Positions 43-13,994 of a stretch of 14,778 nt of DNA are shown one piece after another; within the stretch, counting starts at the first letter, position 1, and every line of letters starts with the position of its first letter. The position numbers were made by a program, and so were the translations under genes. The notes beneath the pieces were generated by a model that worked only from the letters and a program-made list of their open reading frames with translations, was not told the DNA's origin and ran no database searches. Where the stretch lies: assembly GCA_013696525.1 (NCBI GenBank), contig JACCYK010000466.1, forward strand, positions 1-14,778, given 5' to 3'. Source of the DNA: Chloroflexia bacterium. Its GTDB lineage: Bacteria; Chloroflexota; Chloroflexia; Thermomicrobiales; UBA6265.

Positions 43-1302
43 TTAAGGGTCCCGCTCGCCGAGGGTGATCTCGACCTGAAACTCATCGTTGCCGCGGATC
101 AGCGTCACCGGCACGGTATCGCCCGGCTCGAACTGAAAGAGCACTTCGGAGAAGCTGCGTTCGGCGTCGATCGCCTCGTCACCGAGCGCGGTCACGATGT
201 CGCCGCTCTCGATCCCCGCCTGGTCAGCCGGTGTCCCCGGCTCGACCTCGATCAAAAAGGCGCCATAGTCGACCGGCAAGTCGAACTCGGCGGCCAGCTC
301 GGGCGAGATTTCTCCCGGCGTGGCCCCGAAGTAGGGATAGATGGCCCGGCCGTATTCGATCAGTTGCGAGGCGATCCGGGCCACGCTATTGGACGGGATG
401 GCGAAGAACAATCCCTGGACCGGCGCTCCATCCGGCGACACCGGGATCCCCAGCGTGTTGACGCCGACCACGTTGCCCGCCAGGTCAAACAGCGGCCCAC
501 CCGAGTTGCCAGGGTTGATCGCCGCGTTGTGCTGGATCAGGTTGTTGTATTCGGCCAACCCCACCGAACCCGACTGCCGCGGAAAGTCCCGGTTCAAGGC
601 GCTGATGATGCCGTCGGTGACGGTGCCGGTGAACTCGCCGAGCGGCGAGCCAATCGCCAGGATCGGCTGCCCGACTTGCAAGGACTCGGAATCGCCAAAC
701 TCGACCACCGCCGGCAGCTCACCATCGACCCGCACCACCGCCAGATCACTCAGGCGATCGGTACCCACCAACTCGGCCGGGCGCTTCTCGCCATCGGAGA
801 AGATCACCTCGAGCCGGTCGCCGCCCGCCACGACATGCTGGTTGGTCACGATATGGCCCTGCTCGTCGATGACGAAGCCGGTCCCCCGGCCCGCTTGCTG
901 CACGCCGCCCTCGCCAAAGGGCCCGGTTGACACCCCGTTGATGACCGTGACCACGGCCGGCCAGACTTCATCGACCACATCGACGGCCGACATCGGCACC
1001 AGGGCGCTGGCATCGGGCGCCGAACGAGCGCCGGTGCTACTGGCCCGCTCGTCGCCTTCAACCGGATCATTCGTCTGTAGCTGAAGGCTGGGCGGCGTCG
1101 CTGGATCGTCCGGACGCGCCGTCACGGCGGGAGCCGCCGTGGACGGCCTCGTCGCCGGGGCGGGATCGACCGTGGGACGCACGGGCCCAGCGCCGGTCGG
1201 CCCCGTCGCCGTGGGTGGTGGCGGCTCGAGCGTCAGCGAGCCGCACCCGGCCAAGACAAGGATGAAGAGCATCGCTCCGAAGAGCGCGATGTGCTTAGCC
1301 AT
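43..1302 (-). CDS. HtrA/DegP-type serine protease, lipoprotein with PDZ domain
   Basis: Predicted 419-residue extracytoplasmic serine protease of the S1C (HtrA/DegP/DegQ) family, which handles misfolded exported proteins. A hydrophobic N-terminus ends in a lipobox, LAGC with Cys20, so membrane anchoring by lipid is likely. A Pro/Thr/Ala-rich linker of about 80 residues follows. The protease domain has the complete triad: His156 in TNQHVV, Asp186 in LSDLAVV and Ser267 in NPGNSGGPLF. One PDZ domain fills about residues 325-415 (GTPADQAGIESGDIV). One PDZ rather than two fits the DegS/HtrA-like group common in Gram-positive and Chloroflexota genomes. The ATG at 1302 is chosen because it is followed by the signal sequence and has GAAGGA 12 bases upstream. 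An in-frame ATG at 1323 lacks a ribosome site, and the open frame running back to 2067 is read-through opposite the repeat gene. The gene is divergent from the secreted repeat protein. Confidence 0.93.
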   Translation of the reverse strand: MAKHIALFGAMLFILVLAGCGSLTLEPPPPTATGPTGAGPVRPTVDPAPATRPSTAAPAVTARPDDPATPPSLQLQTNDPVEGDERASSTGARSAPDASALVPMSAVDVVDEVWPAVVTVINGVSTGPFGEGGVQQAGRGTGFVIDEQGHIVTNQHVVAGGDRLEVIFSDGEKRPAELVGTDRLSDLAVVRVDGELPAVVEFGDSESLQVGQPILAIGSPLGEFTGTVTDGIISALNRDFPRQSGSVGLAEYNNLIQHNAAINPGNSGGPLFDLAGNVVGVNTLGIPVSPDGAPVQGLFFAIPSNSVARIASQLIEYGRAIYPYFGATPGEISPELAAEFDLPVDYGAFLIEVEPGTPADQAGIESGDIVTALGDEAIDAERSFSEVLFQFEPGDTVPVTLIRGNDEFQVEITLGERDP

Positions 1303-1507
1303 CGACAGGGGACGTCCTTCCATAAGTGCGCGAAACGGACGGCAGTTCGAGCGCGAATCTTTGATGATGCGTCGTCCTGACGATACCAACGTCGATCGCA
1401 ACGTGACCCGCTGGCACTCGAACTGCGTAAGACGACGGAACGACTCACCCACGCTGCACGTTCTAATTGTGGGAAGGGTACTTGAACAACACTGCAAGGA
1501 GGCCCAA
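1303..1507. promoter_or_regulatory. Divergent intergenic region
   Basis: This 205-base gap separates two divergent genes for exported proteins, so it must hold promoters in both directions unless transcription enters from elsewhere. No convincing sigma-70 promoter was found for the minus-strand protease. On the + strand, GGAAC (1437-1441), 17 bases, then CGTT (1459-1462) resembles the -35/-10 pattern of ECF sigma factors. ECF promoters are often used for envelope-stress genes, but the match is short and could be chance. Confidence 0.3.
1496..1502 (+). promoter_or_regulatory. Strong ribosome binding site fixing the GTG start at 1508
   Basis: AAGGAGG is a full Shine-Dalgarno match five bases before GTG at 1508. 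It settles the start of the repeat protein. The longer open frame back to 1139 runs opposite the protease gene and has no comparable site. Confidence 0.8.
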
Positions 1508-3118
1508 GTGACTCGCCCGTACCAGCAACGAACAGGACCAACCCGACAACCGGGTTCGGCGCGGATCGCGCTCAGATCACTGACCACGAGCCTGCTCCTG
1601 GGAGGTCTCTTGGCATCCGGCATGCCAGCGGCCGCCGACACGGGGAGCAGCGGCGCCTGCGGCTGTCCCACGACCCGGCAGGCCGACCAAAACCCCGGTG
1701 CCGGCCGCGCCGTCATCAACGAGGAGTTGAGCGAAGGGGACGATGTCGTTGTCGAGTTCATCCCCAGTGATCTCCCCGCCGGGCCCCGGAAAGATCGCGC
1801 CCCGGTGCCGGCGTTCGGGGATACCGCCGTGTCCGGCGGCGACGTCGAGAACACCACCTCGATCGCGGTCGACGCCTCGGGCGGTGACGCCGACGCCGAT
1901 GCCGGTGGCGGCGATCTCAACCTCGTCGAGGTCGTCACCCGCGGACAGGGCGACGTGGATGCCGATGCCGGCTCCGGCGGCACGGCGGACGCGGACGCCT
2001 CCGGCGGCGTGGTCGTGATTGGCAACGTCAACAGTGGCAACAACCAGGGATCCGAGATCGAGGTCAACCAATTTTCGACCGGCCGGCTCGTCTGCTACCT
2101 GCCTAGCGGCAAAGCGCTAGTCGAAGTCCCGGCCCGGTACTCGTTGCCAGCGGGCAATGTCGAGGTTGATGCCGGGTCGGTCTCGAACGAGACGACGATC
2201 GCGGTCGACGCCTCCGGCGGTGAAGCCGAGGCGGATGCCAGCGGCGGCGATGGCAACATCGTCATCGTCAGCGGCCGTGGGAACACGAACGCCAGCGCGG
2301 GCACCGGCGGCACCGCCGACGCCGACGCCAGCGGCGGCGCGGTCGTCATCGGCAACGTCAACACGGGTGGCAACCAGGGCAGCCAGGTGACGGTCGGCGG
2401 CAACGCCGGTGACGGCCAAGGCGACCGCGAGCTGACCCGCGAGGAGCGCCGCGCGGCGCGACAGGGCGGCTGTGTGCCGCCGCCATGCCAGGTGCCCGGC
2501 GCGGTCAACACCGTGGTCGAGGGCGGCGATGTCAGCAACACGACCGATATCGCGGTCGATGCCTCGGGCGGCGACGCTAGCGCCGATGCCAGCGGCGGCG
2601 ATGACAACCTCGTCCAGGTTGAGACCTCGGGCCAAAATGTGACCGTTGATGCCAGCGCCGGCACCGGCGGCACCGCTGGCGCCGATGCCTCCGGCGGCGT
2701 GGTCGAGATCGGCACCGTGCGTAGCGGCGGCAACACGGGGTCGGATATCCGCCTCAACAACGTCGCCGGCCGCCTGCTCTGCCTGTCCGGGAACGACTCG
2801 CTGCTGCTGGAGCTCGACTTCGGCTTTGCCGACGACACCTCGCGCCGGGGTCGACCGGACCGGGAGGTCACCGGCGGCACGGTGACAAACGAGACCGAGA
2901 TCTCGGTCAGTGCCGCTGGCGGTGAGGCCGAGGCGGATGCCAGCGGCGGCGACGGAAACATCGTCATCACCGGCGGCCGCGGCAACACGGACGCCAGCGC
3001 CGGCAGCGGCGGCACCGCCGACGCCGACGCCAGCGGCGGCACCATTGTCATCGGTGATGTCAACAGCGGCGGCAACCGCGGCAACGACATCGACGATGAC
3101 GACGATGATGATGATTAG
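1508..3118 (+). CDS. Secreted Asp/Ala/Gly-rich repeat protein with poly-Asp tail
   Basis: Predicted 536-residue exported protein of unknown function. A Sec-type signal is visible: basic N-terminus, hydrophobic stretch at about residues 25-37, and an AAA/D cleavage site near residue 43. The mature part holds four modules at about residues 112-212, 217-297, 340-442 and 456-528. Each contains an NxT(x)I(A/S)V strand, an xADASGGD turn, a hydrophobic strand, GGTADADASGG and an IGxVxSGGNxGS ending. Modules 1 and 3 share a tail with RL(V/L)C; modules 2 and 4 share EAEADASGGDGNIVI, so the order is A-B-A-B. Alternating Asp-Ala suggests beta strands with one acidic face, perhaps a calcium-dependent solenoid or surface fibre; that is inference. 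The protein ends in eight consecutive Asp. Five or more Cys lie outside the repeat cores. No sortase motif or C-terminal membrane helix is seen. It is divergent from an HtrA-like protease. Confidence 0.85.
   Translation: MTRPYQQRTGPTRQPGSARIALRSLTTSLLLGGLLASGMPAAADTGSSGACGCPTTRQADQNPGAGRAVINEELSEGDDVVVEFIPSDLPAGPRKDRAPVPAFGDTAVSGGDVENTTSIAVDASGGDADADAGGGDLNLVEVVTRGQGDVDADAGSGGTADADASGGVVVIGNVNSGNNQGSEIEVNQFSTGRLVCYLPSGKALVEVPARYSLPAGNVEVDAGSVSNETTIAVDASGGEAEADASGGDGNIVIVSGRGNTNASAGTGGTADADASGGAVVIGNVNTGGNQGSQVTVGGNAGDGQGDRELTREERRAARQGGCVPPPCQVPGAVNTVVEGGDVSNTTDIAVDASGGDASADASGGDDNLVQVETSGQNVTVDASAGTGGTAGADASGGVVEIGTVRSGGNTGSDIRLNNVAGRLLCLSGNDSLLLELDFGFADDTSRRGRPDREVTGGTVTNETEISVSAAGGEAEADASGGDGNIVITGGRGNTDASAGSGGTADADASGGTIVIGDVNSGGNRGNDIDDDDDDDD
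1841..3091 (+). repeat. Four imperfect coding repeats in A-B-A-B order
   Basis: Units at about 1841-2143 (A1), 2156-2398 (B1), 2525-2833 (A2) and 2873-3091 (B2) encode the modules of the repeat protein. B1 and B2 remain close at DNA level, for example around GCCGACGCCGACGCCAGCGG in both. A1/A2 share the RLxC tail that B units lack. This pattern points to duplication of an A-B pair after an older A/B duplication. It also produces long spurious open frames on the minus strand. Confidence 0.8.
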
Positions 3119-3997: not shown

Positions 3998-4023
3998 GGC
4001 GGGTGAGGAAGGATGCCCAGAGG

Positions 4024-5118
4024 ATGCTGGATCGCCGTCAGACCGCGGAGACTTCGGGACGACAGTGGAGACACGCCGGGTGGCCGGCGACGCTGTCCCT
4101 CATTTTGGTCGTCAGCGTTGGCGTTGTCGCCGCCCTGGTCAGCCATGCCGGACGGCAATCCTCGGCGGGTTTCGGTCAGGAAACGAGTCCCACCGGAACC
4201 AGCCGGAACGATCCCGTCCCCCTTGGCCAGGCGGCGATCGCCGGCCCCCTCCGGATCACCGTGAGCGACGTTTCGTCCGGGCCGGCCGCGGTCGAACGGG
4301 TGCTGGCGACCACGCCGAACAACCCGGCGCCGCGCCAGGATCACACCTTTGTCCTGACCTATGTCACGGTCGGCAACGAGGGCGAAACGCCGGTCTTTGT
4401 CAGCAACGACGATTTCGGCCTGACCGGCTCCTCCGGCATCGTCCACCGGTTCTTGATCGCCGAGCCGCCCGCGCCGGCCCTGTTCGCCACGATCGATCCC
4501 GGCGCCAGCGCCGAGGGCTGGCTCGTCTTCGAGGCACCAACCGCGGAGACCGAGCCGCTCCTCGTCTTTGACAGCCCGAGCTTCCCCGGCACCTGGGCCC
4601 GCCAAACGCTGACCCTGCTCGCCGGCGCCAGCATCCCGGACGCGGCCTCGCCCGCCGCCGCCCGGAGCGAGGTCGGATTGACGGCCGAGGCCCCAGCCGG
4701 CCTCAACACGGCGATCGTGAGCGGAACCTGGCAGGTCGAGCTGATCGATGTCGCGGTTGGGGCCGACGTTTTCGCCCTGGTCGACTACCGGACGGGCGCC
4801 CTCGGGATCGAGGACTCGAACAATGACTCACCGTGGCTGGCGCTGCGGGTGCGGGTCACCAACATCGGCACTGGCGGCGATCCGTCCTTCTTCCCGCCGA
4901 ATGCCTTCGCCCTGGCCGACGCCACCGGCGCCCCCTTGCTCGATTTCGTTACCCTGACCCCGCCCGTGCCCGATGCCAGCGGCGCCTACTACCCCGGCGC
5001 GTCACGCGACGGCTGGGTCGCCTTCGAGCTGCCCAACTACGACCCGTTCCTCATCATCTTCGACCCCTACGACGTGACAACCGAAAATCCAGATCCCCGC
5101 TACCTCACCTACCAGTGA
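4024..5118 (+). CDS. Membrane-anchored exported protein with two DUF4352-like domains
   Basis: Predicted 364-residue protein. A single hydrophobic segment at residues 21-41 (LSLILVVSVGVVAALV) acts as signal anchor, leaving the rest outside the cytoplasm. Two similar domains follow, about residues 62-190 and 208-362. Both begin with an Ala/Gly-rich strand leading into a (L/Q)xxxxDV segment, contain an extended YVTVGNEG or VRVTNIG strand, and end with PGAS(A/R)(E/D)GW(L/V)(V/A)FE followed by a LVFD or LIIFD strand. This is the layout of DUF4352 (telokin-like, immunoglobulin-like) domains, usually found in cell-surface lipoproteins; function unknown. ATG at 4024 has AGGAAGG 11 bases upstream; GTG at 4003 is an in-frame alternative. 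It lies 81 bases before the PmoC-like membrane gene and could belong to the same unit. Confidence 0.75.
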   Translation: MLDRRQTAETSGRQWRHAGWPATLSLILVVSVGVVAALVSHAGRQSSAGFGQETSPTGTSRNDPVPLGQAAIAGPLRITVSDVSSGPAAVERVLATTPNNPAPRQDHTFVLTYVTVGNEGETPVFVSNDDFGLTGSSGIVHRFLIAEPPAPALFATIDPGASAEGWLVFEAPTAETEPLLVFDSPSFPGTWARQTLTLLAGASIPDAASPAAARSEVGLTAEAPAGLNTAIVSGTWQVELIDVAVGADVFALVDYRTGALGIEDSNNDSPWLALRVRVTNIGTGGDPSFFPPNAFALADATGAPLLDFVTLTPPVPDASGAYYPGASRDGWVAFELPNYDPFLIIFDPYDVTTENPDPRYLTYQ

Positions 5119-5199: not shown

Positions 5200-6360
5200 G
5201 TGGCTACATTGGTTGCTCGTCCGACCCGCTCGCCGGCCCGGTCGCCGGTGCTGGCCCACGACCGGTTCCGGGTCGTCGCCTCGATCCCGTTTCTGATCGG
5301 CATCTTGCTGTCGTTCCTCGGGTTTGCCTGGGACGTGCAGTGGCACAGCGATGTCGGGCCGGATACCTTCTTCACCGCGCCGCACCTCGTCCTCTATGCC
5401 GGCATCGCCATCGCCGGGCTCACCGCGCTCACCGTGGTCCTGGTGATCACTTTCCGCTATCGCGGGGTCACGGAGGGGACGGTTTCGGTGCTGGGCGGCC
5501 TGTTTCGCGGGCCCGCCGGGTATGTCATCGGCGGCATCGGGGCCGCGATGTTCCTTGCCTACGGGCTACTCGATCAGTGGTGGCACGGTATCTACGGGTT
5601 CGATGTCACGCTGGTGTCGCCGCCCCATGTCGGGCTGGTCCTGTCGGTCCTGATCAGCATGGTTGGCTGCCTCTGTACCTTCGCCGCCGAGGTCCGGCGG
5701 GCGGCTGACCAGGGGCGAAGCTGGATCGCCCCCGCGGTTGGCTTCGCGGCGGCCACCGCCTTGCTGACCGCCTTTGTCACCCCCAGCGCGATCGATGTGA
5801 TGCTCACCGTCGCCGCCGGCCTCGGCATCGATCCCGATCCCAACGGCACCCTCGCCCTGCTGTACGCTACTACCCTCTTGCTGGTCGCGGCGGTGCTGCG
5901 CCGGCCCGGCGCCGCCACGCTGGCGGCGCTGATGTTCACCATCCTCCGGATCGGGCTCTGGGACTTCGCGCCCTGGATCACCGTCGAGTACGCCGCCGCG
6001 GTCGGGCTGTTCGCGCGGGACAACACGCGGGGCGCCCCGATCATCCCGGGCATGCTCCCGGCGTATCTCCTCCTCGCCGGCATCGTCGTCGATCTCGTCC
6101 TGCTCGCCGGCCGCCGGTTCGGCTGGAATGTCTGGCTGACCGTTATCGCCGCCGGCGCCCTGACCCCCGCCGTCATCCAACTGACCGAGCCGGTGCCCGC
6201 GCTCTTTACGCGCCTGCCGGCGCTCTTCCCGCCCCTGGCCCCGCTGGCCAGGCTGGGCCACTTCTCACTCGTCCCATCGCCATCGGCGCCATCGGCGGCG
6301 TCCTCGGCTGGATCGTCGGCTATGTCTTGCGAAACCAGGAGCAACCGGCGCCGGCAATGA
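5200..6360 (+). CDS. PmoC/AmoC-like polytopic membrane protein, 3' end frameshifted
   Basis: Predicted integral membrane protein of 386 residues as read, with about nine hydrophobic helices. At the end of helix 1 and start of helix 2 it has Asp45, His49 and His62 in DVQWHSDVGPDTFFTAPH. The spacing D-x3-H-x12-H and the surrounding W, DT, F and T match my memory of the copper-site segment of PmoC/AmoC (D..WH.....DT.FT..H). A second copy, Asp125-x3-His129-x13-His143 (DQWWHGIYGFDVTLVSPPH), sits at the end of helix 3 and start of helix 4. A divergent membrane protein binding copper or another metal is therefore plausible; oxygenase activity is not shown. It is not a standard PmoC: no PmoA or PmoB gene lies alongside. 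The reading frame appears shifted near 6273-6275. In the neighbouring frame the protein would continue to 6392, gain a last helix and overlap the next gene by one base. Alternatives: an uncharacterised membrane family, or a copper transport protein. Confidence 0.75.
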   Translation: MATLVARPTRSPARSPVLAHDRFRVVASIPFLIGILLSFLGFAWDVQWHSDVGPDTFFTAPHLVLYAGIAIAGLTALTVVLVITFRYRGVTEGTVSVLGGLFRGPAGYVIGGIGAAMFLAYGLLDQWWHGIYGFDVTLVSPPHVGLVLSVLISMVGCLCTFAAEVRRAADQGRSWIAPAVGFAAATALLTAFVTPSAIDVMLTVAAGLGIDPDPNGTLALLYATTLLLVAAVLRRPGAATLAALMFTILRIGLWDFAPWITVEYAAAVGLFARDNTRGAPIIPGMLPAYLLLAGIVVDLVLLAGRRFGWNVWLTVIAAGALTPAVIQLTEPVPALFTRLPALFPPLAPLARLGHFSLVPSPSAPSAASSAGSSAMSCETRSNRRRQ

Positions 6361-6392
6361 TGGGGTTGGGTATCGCGCGCCAGGCTGCCTGA
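6271..6392 (+). other. Out-of-frame true 3' end of the PmoC-like gene
   Basis: After GTC at 6271-6273, the annotated frame turns into a Ser/Pro/Ala-rich tail ending at 6360. Read from ATC at 6276, the neighbouring frame gives IAIGAIGGVLGWIVGYVLRN, a clear membrane helix with a basic end, and runs to TGA at 6390-6392. That stop shares its A with the ATG of the next gene (TGATG). Adding one C to the CCC at 6273-6275 would join the frames as GTC-CCC-ATC. This is either a one-base assembly error or a real deletion; no standard -1 slippery heptamer is visible. Confidence 0.75.
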
Positions 6393-6925
6393 TGCGCCGT
6401 CTGCTGCTCGTCTCGCTACTGTTGACGATAGCCATGGCAACGTCACTCGCCAAGGCCCACGAAGCGGTGCCCTACCAGGAGCACATCATGGTCGGTCCGT
6501 ACCCGGTCGAGGTCTGGGTCAGCGACTGGCCGATCGCGGCCGAGCGGTCGGTGGACTTCACGTTCAATCCGGCGGGCGGCATCCAGGACAAGACCGGCAC
6601 CATCTCCTTCATCCAGCCAGACGGCGACCTGTACTTCGAGGCGCCGCTGCCGCGCCATCCTCGCAACCGCGCGGTCTGGGGCATCGATCTGATCGCGCTG
6701 CCAGCGTCCGGCCCGTGGACCATCCAGCTCACCATCGACGGCCCGGACGGCGCCGGTAGCGGCGCCTTCGGCCCAATGAACCTGACCGAACAACCCGGCC
6801 CGCCGCCGGTCGTCAGTTGGATCGCCGGCGTCCTGCCGCCGCTCCTGTTCCTGGGCTGGCTCCTCGTCTCGAGCCTCCGGCGATTCCATGCCGCCTCACG
6901 CCGCCTCGCATGGTCTTGGCCGTAG
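6392..6925 (+). CDS. Exported, C-terminally anchored protein with N-terminal histidine after cleavage
   Basis: Predicted 177-residue protein. Residues 1-22 form a clear signal peptide ending AKA, so the mature chain should begin His23-Glu24. A beta-sandwich-like domain follows (GPYPVEVWVSDWPI, FTFNPAGG, then GPWTIQLTIDGPDGAGSGAFGP), and a single helix at about 141-161 anchors it, followed by a basic tail. Other histidines are at 31 and 89. An N-terminal His in a secreted beta domain is known in CopC and in PmoB, where it helps bind copper; the general look also recalls YtkA/CopC-like proteins. I infer a copper-binding partner of the PmoC-like protein. Start ATG at 6392 has no clear ribosome site, which fits translational coupling to the restored upstream stop. 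Function not established. Confidence 0.75.
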   Translation: MRRLLLVSLLLTIAMATSLAKAHEAVPYQEHIMVGPYPVEVWVSDWPIAAERSVDFTFNPAGGIQDKTGTISFIQPDGDLYFEAPLPRHPRNRAVWGIDLIALPASGPWTIQLTIDGPDGAGSGAFGPMNLTEQPGPPPVVSWIAGVLPPLLFLGWLLVSSLRRFHAASRRLAWSWP

Positions 6926-7018
6926 TCCGCGGGGCATGGCGCGAGTCCTTTTTCAGCGGCTACACTGACCATATCATCTGCATGTTGCGCCCGTTCCAGA
7001 CACGCTCTTGTGCGAAAT

Positions 7019-7024
7019 TATGAT
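7019..7024 (+). promoter_or_regulatory. Possible -10 element of the toxin-antitoxin operon
   Basis: TATGAT (7019-7024) is a good sigma-70 -10 match within the AT-rich stretch before the antitoxin gene, and would start transcription just before its ribosome site. No matching -35 is seen at 16-18 bases, so the call is weak. The rest of the 120-base gap from 6926 to 7045 shows no gene or clear terminator. Confidence 0.3.
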
Positions 7025-7045
7025 GACCAATGTGGGAGGAGCGGA

Positions 7046-7390
7046 ATGCGCCAGCAACAGCCAACGACCCAGACCATGAAGATCTCGGAGGTCAAGCGCC
7101 GCCTCAGCGCCCTCGTCAACGAGGTCTACCGCGAGGAGTCAAGGGTACTCATTGAAAAGAGTGGCATCCCGGTGGCGGCCCTCGTCTCACCAGCGGATTT
7201 TGACCGGCTGGTGCGCTTCGATCGGGAACGCGAGGAACGGGAGCGAGACTTCGCCATCATCGACGAGATGCGGGAGTCGTTCAAGGACGTCCCGCCCGAG
7301 GAGATCGAACGAGAGTCTATTCGGATCGTTGCTGAGCTTCGAGCGGAAAAGGAGGCCGAGCGTCAGGCGAAGGCCGCTGCAATCGCGTGA
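7046..7390 (+). CDS. Phd/YefM-type antitoxin
   Basis: Predicted 114-residue antitoxin of the Phd/YefM family, which binds DNA with its N-terminal fold and neutralises the partner toxin with its C-terminal part. The family core is visible at about residues 10-58: MKISEVKRRLSALVNEV, then the RVLIEKSGIPVAALVSPADF segment with its typical KxGxPVAxLVSxxDF ending. The C-terminal half is highly charged and helical, rich in Glu and Arg, ending in an Ala/Lys-rich tail. ATG at 7046 is chosen for GGGAGGA five bases upstream (7034-7040). The stop overlaps the toxin start in GTGA, so the two are translationally coupled. Such operons are usually repressed by their own antitoxin; no operator was identified. 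Confidence 0.88.
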   Translation: MRQQQPTTQTMKISEVKRRLSALVNEVYREESRVLIEKSGIPVAALVSPADFDRLVRFDREREERERDFAIIDEMRESFKDVPPEEIERESIRIVAELRAEKEAERQAKAAAIA

Positions 7391-7821
7391 TCCGAGTTAC
7401 CCTGGACACCAATGTGCTAGCTTCGGGCGCCACCTCCGTCGCCGGTCCTGTTGCAATCTTGATGGAGGCTTGGCGCCGCGCTGACCTGATCGTGGTAGTC
7501 TCCTCCCACATCTTGGCCGAGCTGGAGGAGGCGCTGCGCAATCCGTACTTTGCGCAACAACTCGATCGGCGGTCACGCAACGTGTACCTCCGCCTCGTCC
7601 GACAACGCGCGATTGTCATCCCCATCACCACGCCGGTTCCGACCATCGTCTCAGAATACGACGACAATCTCGTCCTTGCCACGGCGGACAGCGGCGGTGT
7701 TACCTACCTCGTCACCGGGGATGCGGAGCTTCTGCGACTTGGCGCCTTTCGTGACATTGCGATCCTGTCGCCCCGTTCATTCCTCGCTGGGCTGGACCCG
7801 CGAGAACGGGCGGAGCCGTGA
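7387..7821 (+). CDS. PIN-domain toxin
   Basis: Predicted 144-residue PIN-domain ribonuclease of the putative toxin group COG1569. PIN toxins cleave RNA with a Mg2+ or Mn2+ site built from conserved acids. These are visible as Asp7 in VTLDTNVLASG, Glu45 in HILAELEEAL, Asp93 in the EYDDNLVLATA segment and Asp112 in LVTGDAELL. The length is typical for the family and the site looks intact, so the toxin is probably active. The GTG start at 7387 overlaps the antitoxin stop by four bases. Its RNA target cannot be inferred. Confidence 0.88.
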   Translation: MIRVTLDTNVLASGATSVAGPVAILMEAWRRADLIVVVSSHILAELEEALRNPYFAQQLDRRSRNVYLRLVRQRAIVIPITTPVPTIVSEYDDNLVLATADSGGVTYLVTGDAELLRLGAFRDIAILSPRSFLAGLDPRERAEP

Positions 7822-7897
7822 GTGATTGACGCCACCGGCAACCGGTTGTATCGTGCGTCAATGTCAACGCCGTTCACGGATAGCGCGAGTTGAGCCG

Positions 7898-9235
7898 GTG
7901 CCGGTTACGGTCCTTCGCGATGCGGACATCTTCACCGCCGATGCCGAGCATCGCGTCCTCGCGGGCGGCTGGCTCGCGATCGCGAATGGCCGGATCGTGG
8001 ACATTGGCCCGGCGGGCACGGCGCCGCCGGGCGCCGGTTCCGATTCCGTGGTCGACCTGAGCGGCCACGCCCTGCTGCCGGGCCTCGTCAATGCCCACAC
8101 CCACTCGCCCATGATCCTGTTCCGGGGCCGGGCCGAGGGCCACAGCCTGCTGACCATGGACGGCTGGTGGCGGGCGATCCGGAAGCCGGAGCTGCATCTC
8201 ATCGCGGCCGATATCCACCCGGCCGCCGCGCTCTCCTACGCCGAGATGGCCCGTTGCGGCACCACGCTCGTCGCCGATCAATACTTCTTTGCCGACGAGA
8301 TCTACGCCGCCGCCCACGCCTCCGGGTTGCGGGCCGTGATCGCCTACGGCATCGTCGAGCTGGGCGATGAGGCGCGGGGCAAGCGCGAGCTGGCGACGGC
8401 GGTCGATTTCGTCGAGCATGCCGCCAGGGCGGGCAATGACAAGGTGCGGGGCTGGATTGGTCCCCACGCGCCGTTTGTCGACAATTCGGAGTCGCTGTTG
8501 CGAGCGGAAGCGTCGGCGGCGAACGCCCATGGGGTCGGGCTCCATCTACACATGGCGGTCGGCCCGGAAGACAATGAGCACACGCTGGCGTCGCGCGGCG
8601 TCACCGCCGCGGTCGCGCTGGATCGGATCGGCTTCTTTGCAGCCCGCGTCCTAGCCGCCCATTGCTTGGACTTGGCAGCGGCGGACATCGCGGTCTTCGC
8701 CAACGCCAAGCACGCCGCGGTCGTTCATTGCCCGACCGCCGGCCTTCGCTCCGGCCGGCCGGCCATCACGCCGGTCGTCGACCTGCTGGCGGCGGGAGTC
8801 ACGGTCGCCCTCGGCACGGACAACGCGGCGGCCAATACCAGCTATGATCTGTTCACCGAGATGAAGGCGGCCGGGCTGGCCGCGTCGCACCGGGAGGGCC
8901 GCGCCGGCGCCCTTCCCGCCGGCACCCTGCTCCGGATGGCGACGATTGACGGCGCCCGCGCGCTTGGTCTCGACCTGGAGACGGGTAGCCTAGAGATTGG
9001 CAAGGCGGCCGACCTGATCGCGGTCGATTGCCGGGGGCCGGGGTATTCAGCCGCCCCCGACCTGGCAACGCTGCTCGTGTACTCCGGCTCCGGGCACGGT
9101 GTCCGGCATGTCCTAGTGGCGGGAGATTGGATCGTGAAGGACAATCAGCTCATGGGGACTGATCTCCACCGCCTCAGCGATGCGTACCAGCGGACGTATC
9201 GGCACTTTTGGGATCGCGTCGAGGCCGCGACGTAG
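7898..9235 (+). CDS. Amidohydrolase, SAH/adenosine/guanine deaminase-like
   Basis: Predicted 445-residue cytosolic metal-dependent amidohydrolase of the TRZ/ATZ-SsnA-MtaD group, which removes amino or halide groups from purines, pterins and triazines. The metal site is largely visible: His67 and His69 in LVNAHTHSP, His218 in GLHLHMA, His255 in LAAHC and Asp308 in ALGTDNAA. His190 in GPHAP and the C-terminal GSLEIGKAADLIAVD strand are typical of the group. One key residue is unusual: the HxxE motif that normally supplies a catalytic Glu reads His218-Met-Ala-Val221. Either catalysis uses another acid nearby (PEDNE follows) or the reaction differs. Its position 62 bases before a nucleoside-type importer suggests a purine nucleoside or base substrate. 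Start is uncertain: GTG 7898 fits family N-termini, with only a weak GCGAG upstream; TTG 7826 and GTG 7853 are in-frame alternatives. Confidence 0.85.
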   Translation: MPVTVLRDADIFTADAEHRVLAGGWLAIANGRIVDIGPAGTAPPGAGSDSVVDLSGHALLPGLVNAHTHSPMILFRGRAEGHSLLTMDGWWRAIRKPELHLIAADIHPAAALSYAEMARCGTTLVADQYFFADEIYAAAHASGLRAVIAYGIVELGDEARGKRELATAVDFVEHAARAGNDKVRGWIGPHAPFVDNSESLLRAEASAANAHGVGLHLHMAVGPEDNEHTLASRGVTAAVALDRIGFFAARVLAAHCLDLAAADIAVFANAKHAAVVHCPTAGLRSGRPAITPVVDLLAAGVTVALGTDNAAANTSYDLFTEMKAAGLAASHREGRAGALPAGTLLRMATIDGARALGLDLETGSLEIGKAADLIAVDCRGPGYSAAPDLATLLVYSGSGHGVRHVLVAGDWIVKDNQLMGTDLHRLSDAYQRTYRHFWDRVEAAT

Positions 9236-9243
9236 CGGTCAGA

Positions 9244-9273
9244 CGCCCGAGCGGGCGCGCGGTGGGTGCGCCC
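9244..9273 (+). promoter_or_regulatory. Two overlapping hairpins before the importer operon
   Basis: CGCCC (9244-9248) can pair with GGGCG (9253-9257), while GGGCGC (9253-9258) can instead pair with GCGCCC (9268-9273). The shared strand makes them mutually exclusive, an arrangement seen in attenuators. AAAAATA follows, then the ribosome site. GC-rich DNA gives such pairs easily, so this is weak evidence of regulation. Confidence 0.25.
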
Positions 9274-9297
9274 AAAAATAGCGAGGAGACGATGCGG

Positions 9298-10347
9298 ATG
9301 GATACGAGAATCGTCAGCCGATTTGCCCTGGCCTGCCTGCTGATCGTGACCGGGCTGCTCGCCCAGACCGGTTTGCGCCAGGCCGCCGCCCAGGATGACC
9401 CGCTCCGGGTGGTGTTCGTGGTGAACGGCGTGCTGGGCGACAAGAGCTTCTTCGATTCCGCCGCCGAGGGCATGAACCGGATGGAAGCGGAGCTGGGGGT
9501 CGAGGCCGACATCCTGGAAGCCGGGTACGACCGCGCCCGCTGGGAACCGGCCCTGGCCGAGGCCGCCGACAGCGACTATGACATCATCATCGTCGGCACC
9601 TTCGACATGAACGGGTACCTGACCGAGATCGCGCCCGAGTACCCGGACACGCGATTCATCATCTTCGATGACGTGGTCGATTACAGCACCGGCTGCTGTG
9701 ACAACGTCTACTCGATCCAGTACGGCACCTCCGATGCCGCCTACCTGGCCGGCTACGCCGCCGCCATGGTCAGCGAGACCGGTGTCCTCGGCACTATCCT
9801 CGGGGCCGAAGGCGGGCCGGTGCTCGAGTTCGCGGTTGGCTTCGAGCAGGGCGCCGAGGCGGCGAACCCAGACGTCGAGGTGCTGCAGGCGGTCGTCGGC
9901 GGCGCCAACCCCTACTCCGATCCGGCGAAGGGCAAAGAGCTGGCCCTAGCCCAGATCCAGCAGGGCGCCGACGTGATCTTCCCGATCGCGGGCAGCTCCG
10001 GCATCGGCTCGCTCCAGGCCGCGCGCGACGAGTCGGTCCTGGCGATCGGCGTCGATTCGGACCAGGCCGCGCTCTTCGCCGAGACTGACCCGGCCCAGGC
10101 CGAGGTCATCTTTACCTCGGTCCTGAAGAACGTTGGCCAGTCGCTCTTCCTCGCGGTCGAAGGCACGATCGACGGCACCACCGAGTACGGCACGGCGGTC
10201 ACGCTGGGCCTGGCCGAGGGCGCGGTCGACATCGTGCAGGACGAGAACTACAACGAGGTCGTGCCGGAAGAAGTGCGGACCACCATCGATGAGCTGCGCG
10301 AGCAGATCGCCAACGGCGAGATCGAGGTCGAAGGCGCGATCAACTAG
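9298..10347 (+). CDS. BMP-family substrate-binding protein of a nucleoside-type ABC importer
   Basis: Predicted 349-residue extracytoplasmic binding protein of the BMP/PnrA/Med family, whose characterised members bind purine nucleosides. A Sec signal occupies residues 1-31 with an AxA site (RQAAAQDD). The mature start shows the family pattern VVFVVNGVLGDKSFFDSAAEGM, with two Rossmann-like lobes; the hinge region keeps AIGVDSDQAALF (Asp253, Gln256). There is no lipobox, unlike many family members, so anchoring is unclear. A vicinal Cys pair at 133-134 is unusual for an exported protein. ATG at 9298 is preferred over ATG 9292, because the AGGAG at 9284-9288 is nine bases from the first and only three from the second. 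It is the first gene of a four-gene importer operon; the ATPase gene follows after 22 bases. Confidence 0.92.
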   Translation: MDTRIVSRFALACLLIVTGLLAQTGLRQAAAQDDPLRVVFVVNGVLGDKSFFDSAAEGMNRMEAELGVEADILEAGYDRARWEPALAEAADSDYDIIIVGTFDMNGYLTEIAPEYPDTRFIIFDDVVDYSTGCCDNVYSIQYGTSDAAYLAGYAAAMVSETGVLGTILGAEGGPVLEFAVGFEQGAEAANPDVEVLQAVVGGANPYSDPAKGKELALAQIQQGADVIFPIAGSSGIGSLQAARDESVLAIGVDSDQAALFAETDPAQAEVIFTSVLKNVGQSLFLAVEGTIDGTTEYGTAVTLGLAEGAVDIVQDENYNEVVPEEVRTTIDELREQIANGEIEVEGAIN

Positions 10348-10369
10348 CCGCCGGACCGAGTACCGGCCG

Positions 10370-11920
10370 ATGGACGCCCCGTTTGCCCTGGAGATGCGTG
10401 ACATCTCCAAGCGCTACCCCGGCGGCACGCTGGCGAACGCCGACGTCAGCCTGGACGTGGCCGCCGCCGGGGTGCATGCCATCGTCGGTGAGAATGGCGC
10501 CGGTAAGTCGACGCTGATGAAGATCCTGTACGGGATCGAACAGCCCGACTCCGGCGCCATCCTCCTCGACGGCACGCCGGTCCAGATCAGCTCGCCGGCC
10601 CGAGCGATCGCGCTTGGTATCGGCATGGTGTTCCAGCACTTCTCGCTGGTACCGTCGCTCAGCGTGGCCGAAAACGTCGTCCTCGGCGCCGAGCCCCGTC
10701 GCGGCCTGGTTCTCGATCTGCCGGCGGCGCTACGGTCGGTGGGCGAGCTGGCGGAGCGGTTCGGGCTGCCGGTCGATCCGGCGGCAACCGTCGGCACGAT
10801 CCCGGTCGGCCAGCAGCAACGAGTCGAGATCCTCAAGGCGCTCTACCGCAACGCCCAAATCCTGATCCTCGACGAGCCAACCGCGGTGCTGACCCCCCAA
10901 GAGGTGGCCGAGCTCTTTACCGCCATTCGCGGCCTGGTGGCGCGGGGGCGGACCGTCCTCTTCATTGCCCACAAGCTGCCGGAGGTACTCGCGATCTCCG
11001 ATGCGATCACGGTGATGCGCGGTGGCCGGGTGGTCGGCAACCTCCGAACCGCGGATGCCACCGCCGAGGAGTTGACGCGCCTGATGGTCGGGCGCGATGT
11101 CTCGCTCCAGGTGGCGCGCACGAGCCACGCCGTCGGGCCGGTCGTCTGCGCGATTGAAGGGGTCAGCGCCAACAACAGCGCCCAACTGCCGGCGGTCAAC
11201 GATGTCTCGTTCGTCGTCCGCTCGGGCGAAATCCTCGGCATCGCCGCGGTCGAGGGGAACGGCCAGTCGGAGCTGCTCGAAGTCCTCTCCGGCCTCCGCC
11301 AGCCGACGGCCGGCCGGATCACGCTCGGCGCGGAGGATGTCACCGGCTGGAGCGTTCGCCACCTGCGCCAGGCCGGCGTCGCCAGCATCCCGGAGGACCG
11401 GCTGGCGCGAGGCCTGGCGGCCGAAGCGACGATCGCGGAAAACATGGTGGCCGAACGGATCGACCGGCCGCCGCTGGTCAACCGCGGCATCCTCGATTGG
11501 AGCGCGATCCGGCGCGCGGCGACCGAGCTGGTGAACGCCTACGGCGTGCGAACGAGCTCGGTTCAGGTGCCGGTGGACACGCTCTCCGGCGGCAACATGC
11601 AGAAGGTCGTCATCGCCCGCGAGCTTTCGAGCCAGCCCAAGCTGCTGCTGGCGGCGCAGCCGACCCGCGGCATCGACATCGGCGCCACCGAGTTCGTCTG
11701 GCAAAGTCTCATCCAGGCCCGAAACCGGGGCGCCGCGATCATCTTGACCTCGGCCGACCTAACCGAGCTGTTGGCCCTGGCGGATCGGATCATCGTCCTC
11801 TCCAAGGGCCGCCTCGTGGCCGCCTTTCCCGACCCGGCCAACCTGACGCCGGAGGATTTGGGCACCTACATGCTCGGGGCGCGGGAACAACCGGCGGCGG
11901 AGCGAGCGATGGCGTCATGA
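10370..11920 (+). CDS. Double ABC ATPase of the nucleoside-type importer
   Basis: Predicted 516-residue ATPase with two ABC domains in one chain, as in sugar- and nucleoside-type importers (RbsA/YufO-like). Domain 1 (about 6-240) has Walker A GENGAGKST at 40-48, the Q-loop Gln89, a signature of the form IPVGQQQ at 144-150, Walker B ILILDEPT with Asp168-Glu169, and switch His201. Domain 2 (about 260-505) has a degenerate Walker A, AAVEGNGQS, without the Lys; a proper LSGGNMQ signature at 405-411; and LLLAAQPTRGID in place of Walker B, lacking the Asp-Glu. This asymmetry is normal for the family: one competent and one degenerate site. The ATG at 10370 has only a weak ribosome site. The stop overlaps the first permease start in ATGA. 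Confidence 0.93.
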   Translation: MDAPFALEMRDISKRYPGGTLANADVSLDVAAAGVHAIVGENGAGKSTLMKILYGIEQPDSGAILLDGTPVQISSPARAIALGIGMVFQHFSLVPSLSVAENVVLGAEPRRGLVLDLPAALRSVGELAERFGLPVDPAATVGTIPVGQQQRVEILKALYRNAQILILDEPTAVLTPQEVAELFTAIRGLVARGRTVLFIAHKLPEVLAISDAITVMRGGRVVGNLRTADATAEELTRLMVGRDVSLQVARTSHAVGPVVCAIEGVSANNSAQLPAVNDVSFVVRSGEILGIAAVEGNGQSELLEVLSGLRQPTAGRITLGAEDVTGWSVRHLRQAGVASIPEDRLARGLAAEATIAENMVAERIDRPPLVNRGILDWSAIRRAATELVNAYGVRTSSVQVPVDTLSGGNMQKVVIARELSSQPKLLLAAQPTRGIDIGATEFVWQSLIQARNRGAAIILTSADLTELLALADRIIVLSKGRLVAAFPDPANLTPEDLGTYMLGAREQPAAERAMAS

Positions 11921-13038
11921 GCCGCTGGCCGGAGTGGGCGTTCGAGGTGCTGCGGACGGTCCTCGCCCTGGTCGTCGCCCTGATCATCACCTTCATCATC
12001 GTCCTGGTCGTCTCCGCTGAGCCGGGCGAGGCGTTCGCCGCCCTCCTCGGCGGTCCCCTCGGCAGCCCCCGCACGATCGGGGTCTGGCTCGACGACGTGG
12101 CAAAGCTGACGCTGGCCGGCCTGGCCTTGAGCCTGGTCTTCCAGGCCCGGCTATTCGCGCTCGGGGCGCAGGGTCAAGCCTATCTCGGGGGCTTGGCCGC
12201 CGGCGTCATCGCCCTCTCCAGCCTGGGCCAGTCCTGGCTCTCAATCCCCCTCGGCCTCGTCGCGGCGGCGGTCACCGGCGCCGCCTACGGCTGGATTCCC
12301 GGCATCATCAAGGCCCGCTTCGGCGCCAACGAGATCGTCTCCACCTTGATGCTCAACTACATCGCGATCGACGTCTTCGCCTGGCTGATCCGGACCCGGA
12401 TTTCCCCCCCTGGCTCGGGCCTCACCCGCTCCGACCCCTTCCCCGAGAGCGCCGTCTATCCCACCCTGATCCCGCGCACCCGGATCGATCTCGGCATCGT
12501 CATCGCCATCATCGCCGTGATCGCAATCTGGTTCTATCTCTACCGAACCAAGCGTGGCTTCGAGCTGAGGATGGTCGGCTTCAACCCCCGGTTCGCCGAG
12601 TACGCCGGGATCAACGTGCCCCGCACGATCGTGCGGACGATGGCCGTTTCCGGCGCCATCGGGGGCATCCTGGGCGCGGTCTTCGTCCAGGGCTCCGCCT
12701 ACGGCGAGCTGGCGGTCGGGTTCGAGGGGCTCATCACCTTCGAGGGCATCCTGGTCGCGATCGTGGCCCGCAACCGCCCGCTGATCGTCCCGGTCGCGGC
12801 CCTCTTCTATGGATATTTGCGCCAAGGGGCGGTGCTGATGGGGCTCCGCAGCGATGTCCCGACCGAGATGATCGGCATTATCCAGGGGGTCGTGATCCTC
12901 CTGGTCGCCTCCGCCGGCCTCTATGGCTGGCTCCGCGCCAGCCAGGCCAACCGCGCCCCGGACACCGATAGCGACCCCGACGCGCCGCAACCGCCGATCA
13001 TCGGCGGCGGTCCACTCACGGAGCAGGCGGTCCGATGA
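11917..13038 (+). CDS. ABC importer permease, NupP/YufP-like
   Basis: Predicted 373-residue inner membrane permease of the BPD_transp_2 family, with about nine to ten hydrophobic helices. The first helix is at residues 14-33. Family marks include LFALGAQGQAYLGGLAAG after helix 3 and FGANEIVSTLMLNYIA at about 135-150, the segment that contacts the ATPase in relatives. The C-terminus is a polar, Asp/Pro-rich tail of about 30 residues that is longer than usual and probably cytosolic. It is coupled to its neighbours on both sides by four-base ATGA overlaps, which fixes the start. It pairs with the second permease as a heterodimer. Confidence 0.92.
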   Translation: MSRWPEWAFEVLRTVLALVVALIITFIIVLVVSAEPGEAFAALLGGPLGSPRTIGVWLDDVAKLTLAGLALSLVFQARLFALGAQGQAYLGGLAAGVIALSSLGQSWLSIPLGLVAAAVTGAAYGWIPGIIKARFGANEIVSTLMLNYIAIDVFAWLIRTRISPPGSGLTRSDPFPESAVYPTLIPRTRIDLGIVIAIIAVIAIWFYLYRTKRGFELRMVGFNPRFAEYAGINVPRTIVRTMAVSGAIGGILGAVFVQGSAYGELAVGFEGLITFEGILVAIVARNRPLIVPVAALFYGYLRQGAVLMGLRSDVPTEMIGIIQGVVILLVASAGLYGWLRASQANRAPDTDSDPDAPQPPIIGGGPLTEQAVR

Positions 13039-13994
13039 CGGAGTTGCTGACGACGATCATTTCGGCCACCTTCTTCTTCGCCGTGATCCGAACCACGGTG
13101 CCGCTCCTGCTGGCGGCCCTGGGCGGGCTGCTGGCGGAGCTGTCCGGCGCCCTCAACGTCGCCCTGGAAGGGATGATGCTGTCGGCGGCGCTGACCGCGG
13201 TGATCGTCTCCGCCTCGTATCCCTGGTGGATCGGGCTGCTCGCCGGCGTCCTGGCCGGCATGGCGTTGGGCGCCGTGATGGCGCTCTTCCACCTCCGGTT
13301 CGGGGCCGATGTCGTACTGGTCGGCTTCGCGATCAACTTGATGGCCGCCGGCGGCACCGTCTTTATCCTGGCCCAGGCCACCGGCGGCGACCGGGGTACC
13401 TCGCTGGCCCTGCCTTCAAAGAGCATCCCGCGGCTCAGCCTCTCCTGGCTGGGGGCGATCCCCGGCGTCGGCGGCACCCTCGAGGCGGCCCTCTCGGGTC
13501 ACTCCTACCTGACCTGGGCGACCGTCATCCTGGTCGCCGGCATCTGGTTCATGCTCTACCAGACCGCGACCGGTTTGCGCCTGCGGGCGGTCGGCGAGTA
13601 CGCCCCGGCGGCGGCGGCGGCCGGCATCTCGCCCGATCAAATGCGAGCCCTGGGGCTGATCCTGTCCGGCGCCCTGGCGGCGCTGGGCGGGGTGCAGCTG
13701 GCGATGTTCAACTACATCGGCTTTACCCGCGACATGACCGCCGGCCGCGGCTTCATCGCCCTGGGGGCGGTCCTGCTCGGGGCCCGCCGTCCCGGCGGCG
13801 TTGCCATCGCCGCCCTCCTCTTCGGCGCCTTCGAGGCGTTGGCGATCGTTCTGCCGGCGCTCTACACCAGCATCCCGGGCGAGCTGATCCACAGCATCCC
13901 CTTCGTCGTCACCCTGGTCGCGCTGGTGATCTACGCCCGCCGGGCTCAATTACTCACCCGCCGCCGCGTCGCCGGGGTCGAAGGAGCAACCTAG
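13035..13994 (+). CDS. ABC importer permease, NupQ/YufQ-like
   Basis: Predicted 319-residue second permease of the same importer, BPD_transp_2 family, with about eight to ten hydrophobic helices. The conserved opening LLAELSGALNVALEGMMLSA (about residues 32-51) is typical for the YufQ-like subunit, as are VGFAINLMAAGGTVFIL and LGAVLLGARRPGG near the C-terminal third. The ATG at 13035 overlaps the preceding stop in ATGA. It is the last gene of the importer operon; the 119 bases after it hold the next promoter and no clear terminator. Confidence 0.92.
   Translation: MTELLTTIISATFFFAVIRTTVPLLLAALGGLLAELSGALNVALEGMMLSAALTAVIVSASYPWWIGLLAGVLAGMALGAVMALFHLRFGADVVLVGFAINLMAAGGTVFILAQATGGDRGTSLALPSKSIPRLSLSWLGAIPGVGGTLEAALSGHSYLTWATVILVAGIWFMLYQTATGLRLRAVGEYAPAAAAAGISPDQMRALGLILSGALAALGGVQLAMFNYIGFTRDMTAGRGFIALGAVLLGARRPGGVAIAALLFGAFEALAIVLPALYTSIPGELIHSIPFVVTLVALVIYARRAQLLTRRRVAGVEGAT

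Follow-up and report, generated by a model that had tools for sequence, protein, structure and literature searches.

The window analysed here, a contig of 14,778 nucleotides from a Chloroflexia bacterium (JACCYK010000466.1, assembly GCA_013696525.1), carries on its forward strand a gene (5200-6392) whose product is a membrane protein with about ten helices. The best-supported interpretation is that this protein is a distant relative of subunit C of the copper membrane monooxygenases (CuMMOs), which include particulate methane monooxygenase (pMMO), ammonia monooxygenase (AMO) and the hydrocarbon monooxygenases, that it probably represents subunits C plus A, that both metal sites are kept, and that the adjoining gene, B2, encodes a partner resembling copper proteins. 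We assign a probability of about 0.5 to the fuller reading, in which this very distant CuMMO relative performs a copper/O2 redox reaction together with B2.

Two metal-site motifs and their conservation

The first site (motif 1, residues 45-62, 5332-5385, forward strand) reads DVQWHSDVGPDTFFTAPH in the translation of 5200-6392 and has the form D45-x3-H49-x12-H62, the spacing of the CuC ligands of PmoC (D156/H160/H173). Set against the HmoC protein of Mycobacterium (P0142, DASWHQIVIRDTAFTPSH) it is identical, with no gap, at 8 of 18 positions (D, W, H, D, T, F, T, H), which bears out both the gapless match to AmoC/PmoC and the presence of all three ligands that the initial annotation had claimed. 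The second site (motif 2, residues 125-143, 5572-5628, forward strand), D125-x3-H129-x13-H143, has the spacing of PmoC CuD (N227/H231/H245). This equally conserved motif had escaped the initial annotation, as had the conserved partner gene and the PmoA-like half of the protein. Both assignments of pMMO ligands (Asp156/His160/His173 for CuC, Asn227/His231/His245 for CuD) are those given in PMC12576850, where two recent studies are cited as favouring CuD as the active site. The sites follow one another in the same order as in PmoC, with the same spacings of 4/13 and 4/14, and lie 80 residues apart in the window protein versus 71 in PmoC. All six ligands lie on one side of the membrane, where the ends of helices 1-2 and of helices 3-4 face each other, and the charge distribution suggests that their loops point outward, to the side where the B2 domain is expected.

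Relatives were collected by a search of 5.8 billion proteins, with 203 relatives at E <= 1e-3 among 8000 candidates scored and 120 listed, their organisms including Thermomicrobiales, Caldilineaceae and actinobacteria, and by a scan of a genome collection that confirmed 216 relatives, the best 80 of 216 being retained. The resulting alignment combines the window with 104 of the 120 listed proteins and with 119 frames taken from loci that were fetched, 224 rows in all; conservation was counted on 221 distinct rows, window included, after removal of the window's second copy (L001) and of identical strings, and for motif 1 on the 220 rows with a residue there. D45 and H62 are kept in 220 of 220 rows and H49 in 219 of 220, so that the conservation check proposed in the initial annotation came out in favour of the site; D125, H129 and H143 are each kept in 221/221 rows, and all six ligands occur together in 219/221. 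The two exceptions are P0070, with Q at H49, and P0089, which begins downstream of motif 1. Among the 120 listed proteins, pattern 1 is present in 118 and pattern 2 in all 120. The CuD position, which is an invariant Asn in the 31 aligned AmoC sequences, is Asp throughout the family (221/221). Between the ligands, P54 is kept in 184/220 rows; counted from the alignment, it occupies the place of PmoC Arg165, which contacts a water near CuD, and is Arg in distant clades, where motif 1 reads WDxxWHxxxGRDxFxxPPH.

The family is present in at least 47 of 301 genomes drawn evenly from the window's phylum and in at least 20 of 296 drawn in the same way from the phylum of Nocardia panacis, many of these relatives being very distant; both figures are lower bounds because at most five candidates were scored per genome. 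In very distant relatives (L108-L119; for example L117 2371-3576 and L119 1453-2802) motif 1 either has a changed form (DGWAHNH...TFFTPWH) or is not covered by the alignment, and motif 2 (D-x2-WH...SPxH) is retained. No Pfam name exceeded its cut-off in the ten distant relatives scanned, and literature searches, with thin coverage of subscription journals, found no description of the family.

Relationship to PmoC/AmoC and PmoA

The PmoC/AmoC-like half comprises four helices (residues 11-174, 5230-5721, forward strand). In a VIA-align superposition residues 11 to 176 of the window protein fall onto residues 120 to 278 of 7s4h_C, with a four-helix core over about 150 residues, and PmoC/AmoC chains stand among the structural matches at 17-19% identity, roughly twice that of the other rows. 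For comparison at the profile level, HmoC references came from the 4 of 198 genomes in the genus of an actinobacterial locus (L030) that match PF04896, whose loci were fetched; a search with one HmoC gave 54 proteins, all with an AmoC domain, and 31 of these were used for the AmoC alignment. With both sides cut to the helical core and 100 of 223 family rows used after the hhalign filter, family and AmoC aligned over 97-99 columns with probability 95, E 3.7e-8 and a score of 55.7, both ligand sets being in register and the aligned stretch 7 residues shorter in AmoC. The profile-profile check suggested in the initial annotation thus exceeded all of its controls: the reversed profile scored 18.3, the highest of 60 permutations reached 21.8 and the highest of 60 block shuffles 27.6, and the comparison with PmoA gave 11.7. 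The score was 55.6 once three further reference sets had been included, all borne on plasmids and one originating from a methanotroph, and two other clades of the family, taken alone and without shuffles of their own, gave 49.5 and 44.1.

The second half (residues 175-350, 5722-6249, forward strand) resembles PmoA on weaker evidence, which comes from a fused homologue and from the family profile. Residues 170-391 of that homologue (P0038) superpose in VIA-align on two PmoA chains over 184-187 residues at 11-14% identity, and hhalign against PmoA gave scores of 29.6-29.9, with a weak match around the helices bearing R-x-P-x-x-A-T and A-x-x-x-D. The PmoA signature GDW-x-F-W-x-DWKDR, invariant in the 4 aligned PmoA/HmoA sequences, does not occur in the window translation, and a search of viral contigs for additional PmoA yielded 2 poor matches, which were left unused. 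On balance we lean slightly towards the view that the second half descends from the PmoA line.

The open frame that contains both halves (5200-6357, 386 amino acids) matches the family frame only up to about residue 335-355, and the family's C-terminal helix (GAIGGVLGWIVGYVLR) resumes in another frame that runs to the TGA at 6390-6392. Since the last helix lies in a different frame after about 6205-6275, the contig carries one frame break, placed there by comparison with six close relatives, and beyond it the gene stays open as far as the TGA; a single contig does not distinguish a true lesion from an assembly error. The source assembly (3.63 Mb in 689 contigs, 79% complete) holds one match to the family.

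No subunit A, B or C of an xmoCAB operon was found by Pfam among the nine window proteins scanned, and PF04896 matched in 0 of 61 genomes, the bacterium's own and related ones, with a query identical to the one that was positive in the 4 of 198 genomes elsewhere; the gene therefore stands outside a pmoCAB or amoCAB operon, as had been proposed. Nor did its own genome contain a PQQ alcohol dehydrogenase above cut-off, and PADLOC matched neither the C gene nor the B2 gene.

The partner gene, a proposed mechanism and its rivals

B2 (6392-6925, forward strand) begins with an ATG that overlaps the preceding TGA by the shared base 6392, and 44 of the 120 relatives listed carry it as a fusion with the C gene. 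Its product has, by eye, a signal peptide and a C-terminal membrane helix, and a model of a fused homologue shows a beta-sandwich domain. PmoD is defined by two strictly conserved cysteines, according to PMC6189053, and was set aside as an identity for B2 because two or more Cys occur in the matched part of just 1 of 96 B2 rows. Equivalence of B2 to the N-terminal domain of PmoB is not supported, the score of 34.5 with signal peptides falling to 20.6 without them. An N-terminal copper His, suggested by the cleavage site read by eye (AKA-HEAVP), is not conserved, being D, Q, Y or V in some relatives.

In actinobacteria the unit has a histidine-rich neighbour with HxH motifs and, by eye, a soluble, two-helix, soluble layout. 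PmoB is likewise built of a soluble part, two helices and a second soluble part. Kinship of the neighbour with PmoB is not supported all the same, the resemblance being one of architecture alone and the profile similarity confined to signal peptides: without these, B2 and the neighbour both score 20.6 against a PmoB profile built from only 6 sequences, with block-shuffle maxima (n=50) of 30.3 and 27.3. Against PDB sequences the neighbour's profile found nothing significant (best E 0.28). The window's own genome encodes a protein (C299, 1289-1990) that matches the His-rich domain at the C-terminus of the actinobacterial neighbour with E 9.1e-30 and stands away from the C gene.

In the mechanism that we propose, the first four helices would be the metal-binding core of PmoC with two Asp/His/His sites, one CuC-like and the other CuD-like, and the remaining helices probably PmoA, giving C and A in one chain in the gene order of xmoCAB. 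One or two copper ions may be bound at the outer face of the membrane, where copper and O2 could drive a redox reaction whose substrate would be small or dissolved in the membrane. Copper or electrons might come from the anchored beta-sandwich of B2, joined in actinobacteria by the histidine-rich neighbour. The motifs, their conservation, the linkage or fusion of the partner and the likeness in profile and fold are observations; bound metal, oxygen chemistry and substrate are proposals, and enzymatic activity is an inference, as the initial annotation also held.

The most serious rival is a module for acquiring copper or another metal, in which a membrane importer or delivery protein with extracellular entry ligands would work with beta-sandwich chaperones in the manner of CopC-CopD or YcnJ, and which could hold even if the fold is related to PmoC and PmoA. 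The protein matched neither CopD nor another transporter family in Pfam or NCBIfam, a scan that did not include profile-profile comparison, and two separate acid/His/His sites with the exact spacings of CuC and CuD are a trait of PmoC. We regard this role as possible though the less probable one; granted homology to PmoC, a redox enzyme has an even or marginally better chance against copper handling.

A less probable rival holds that the protein is unrelated to PmoC by descent, that an acid/His/His site on facing helix ends evolved twice, and that the rest is generic likeness between membrane proteins. Several results weigh on this side and against kinship with PmoC: the Z scores of PmoC/AmoC chains were no higher than those of other structural matches; hmmscan of Pfam-A (to E 1) did not report AmoC and NCBIfam gave no match; the untrimmed profile-profile comparison was weak (P 0.056); masking 15 motif residues reduced the score to 15.8, which is noise; and masking the whole of motif 1 left 22.8, within its null (maximum 28.9). 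AmoC was likewise absent from the results when PDB, Pfam and NCBIfam were searched by sequence, whether the query was the single protein or a profile of the family. Convergence is opposed by the score of 26.1 that remains with the six ligand columns masked, higher than in all 60 shuffles (at most 18.6), by an alignment register that stayed unchanged even with the 15 residues masked, and by the occurrence of two sites in the same order and spacings followed by a PmoA-like half in CA order. With motif 2 masked the score was still 46.7, and because of these masking results the sequence evidence is judged strong but located mainly in and around motif 1.

The weakest rival, a cytochrome b561-type haem/quinone electron-transfer protein with His residues that would bind haem and a resemblance to PmoC that would reflect a common four-helix arrangement, is improbable, since identity to b561 is 8% versus 17-19% for PmoC, both ligand sets lie on one membrane side whereas b561 haems sit on two, two conserved Asp would be left unexplained, and of the AmoC, PmoA and PmoB profiles compared AmoC alone matches the first half.

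Homology of the family to PmoC is accordingly considered likely. It is not a member of PF04896, because a profile match, the Asn ligand and an xmoCAB context were each looked for and are lacking, and similar metal binding may occur regardless. The initial annotation had proposed a separate branch of copper membrane proteins or a relative from which subunit C arose: the distant relation to PmoC/AmoC stands on the profile score and structural matches, membership of AmoC does not (no Pfam hit, Asp for Asn), and nothing shows that subunit C originated from this gene. In its boldest and most tentative form, our reading would make the family an ancient, unrecognised outer CuMMO branch of Actinomycetota and Chloroflexota, with C and A in one polypeptide (C, A and the beta-sandwich partner in many relatives, including Thermomicrobiales), acting as an O2-activating copper enzyme on a new substrate and providing the missing outgroup for pMMO and AMO.

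Genomic surroundings and comparison with known systems

Directly upstream of the C gene lies a gene (4003-5118) whose product has two DUF4352 stretches (Pfam E 1.2e-13); since a similar gene is seen by eye upstream in L002 and L004, it may be part of the unit in the form that Chloroflexota have. Further upstream, the window encodes a 659-residue Gly/Asp-rich protein (1139-3118) with, by eye, about four DASGG-containing repeats and no Pfam match, and on the reverse strand (43-2067) an HtrA-like serine protease (NPGNSGGP, by eye). Downstream follow a Phd/YefM-like antitoxin (E 1.4e-9) and a PIN-domain protein (E 2.3e-15) at 7010-7821, and then, at 7826-13994, an amidohydrolase (E 1.7e-43), a Bmp-type binding protein (E 1.4e-57) and, by eye, an ATPase and two permeases, which we read as a purine/nucleoside-type importer cluster. 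Elsewhere, in several actinobacteria, genes for a histidine kinase (Pfam HisKA_3 at L015 2064-3922; by eye also L030, L048 and L067) and, by eye, a response regulator are directed away from the cluster. In one Chloroflexota group an acetyl-CoA-synthetase-like gene (AMP-binding; L145 6826-8826, reverse strand; by eye also L150 and L153) adjoins the unit; the hmo operons of NBB4 and WAY2 likewise have an AMP-binding gene downstream, which may be coincidence.

Methane and ammonia oxidation begin with pMMO and AMO, enzymes whose origin is disputed. A remote relative in which both PmoC sites persist amid varying surroundings would reveal which residues are essential, and would give mutagenesis a single-chain model and the CuMMO tree a root; if copper handling were its true role, a gas-oxidising enzyme and a copper-delivery protein would appear to share descent. 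The active site of pMMO and AMO is contested too, with conflicting models described in PMC12576850, and for CuMMO trees PMC6215863 names archaeal AMO, itself a CuMMO, as the sole logical outgroup.

Among known systems, B2 is closest in fold to the periplasmic copper proteins CrdA, CopC and FetP(P19), the best matches of its domain at 9-17% identity; the likeness is one of fold, and unlike these proteins B2 is anchored or fused to a PmoC/PmoA-like chain. The histidine-rich neighbour is laid out like PmoB/AmoB but carries HxH in the other domain, and the A-like half, unlike PmoA/AmoA, shares its chain with a C-like half and lacks DWKDR. Unlike PmoC, AmoC and HmoC, the window gene adjoins no separate PmoA and PmoB genes and has no PF04896 match; with them it has in common the D-T-x-F-T motif and, in the same order, D-x3-H-x12-H and [D/N]-x3-H-x13-H.
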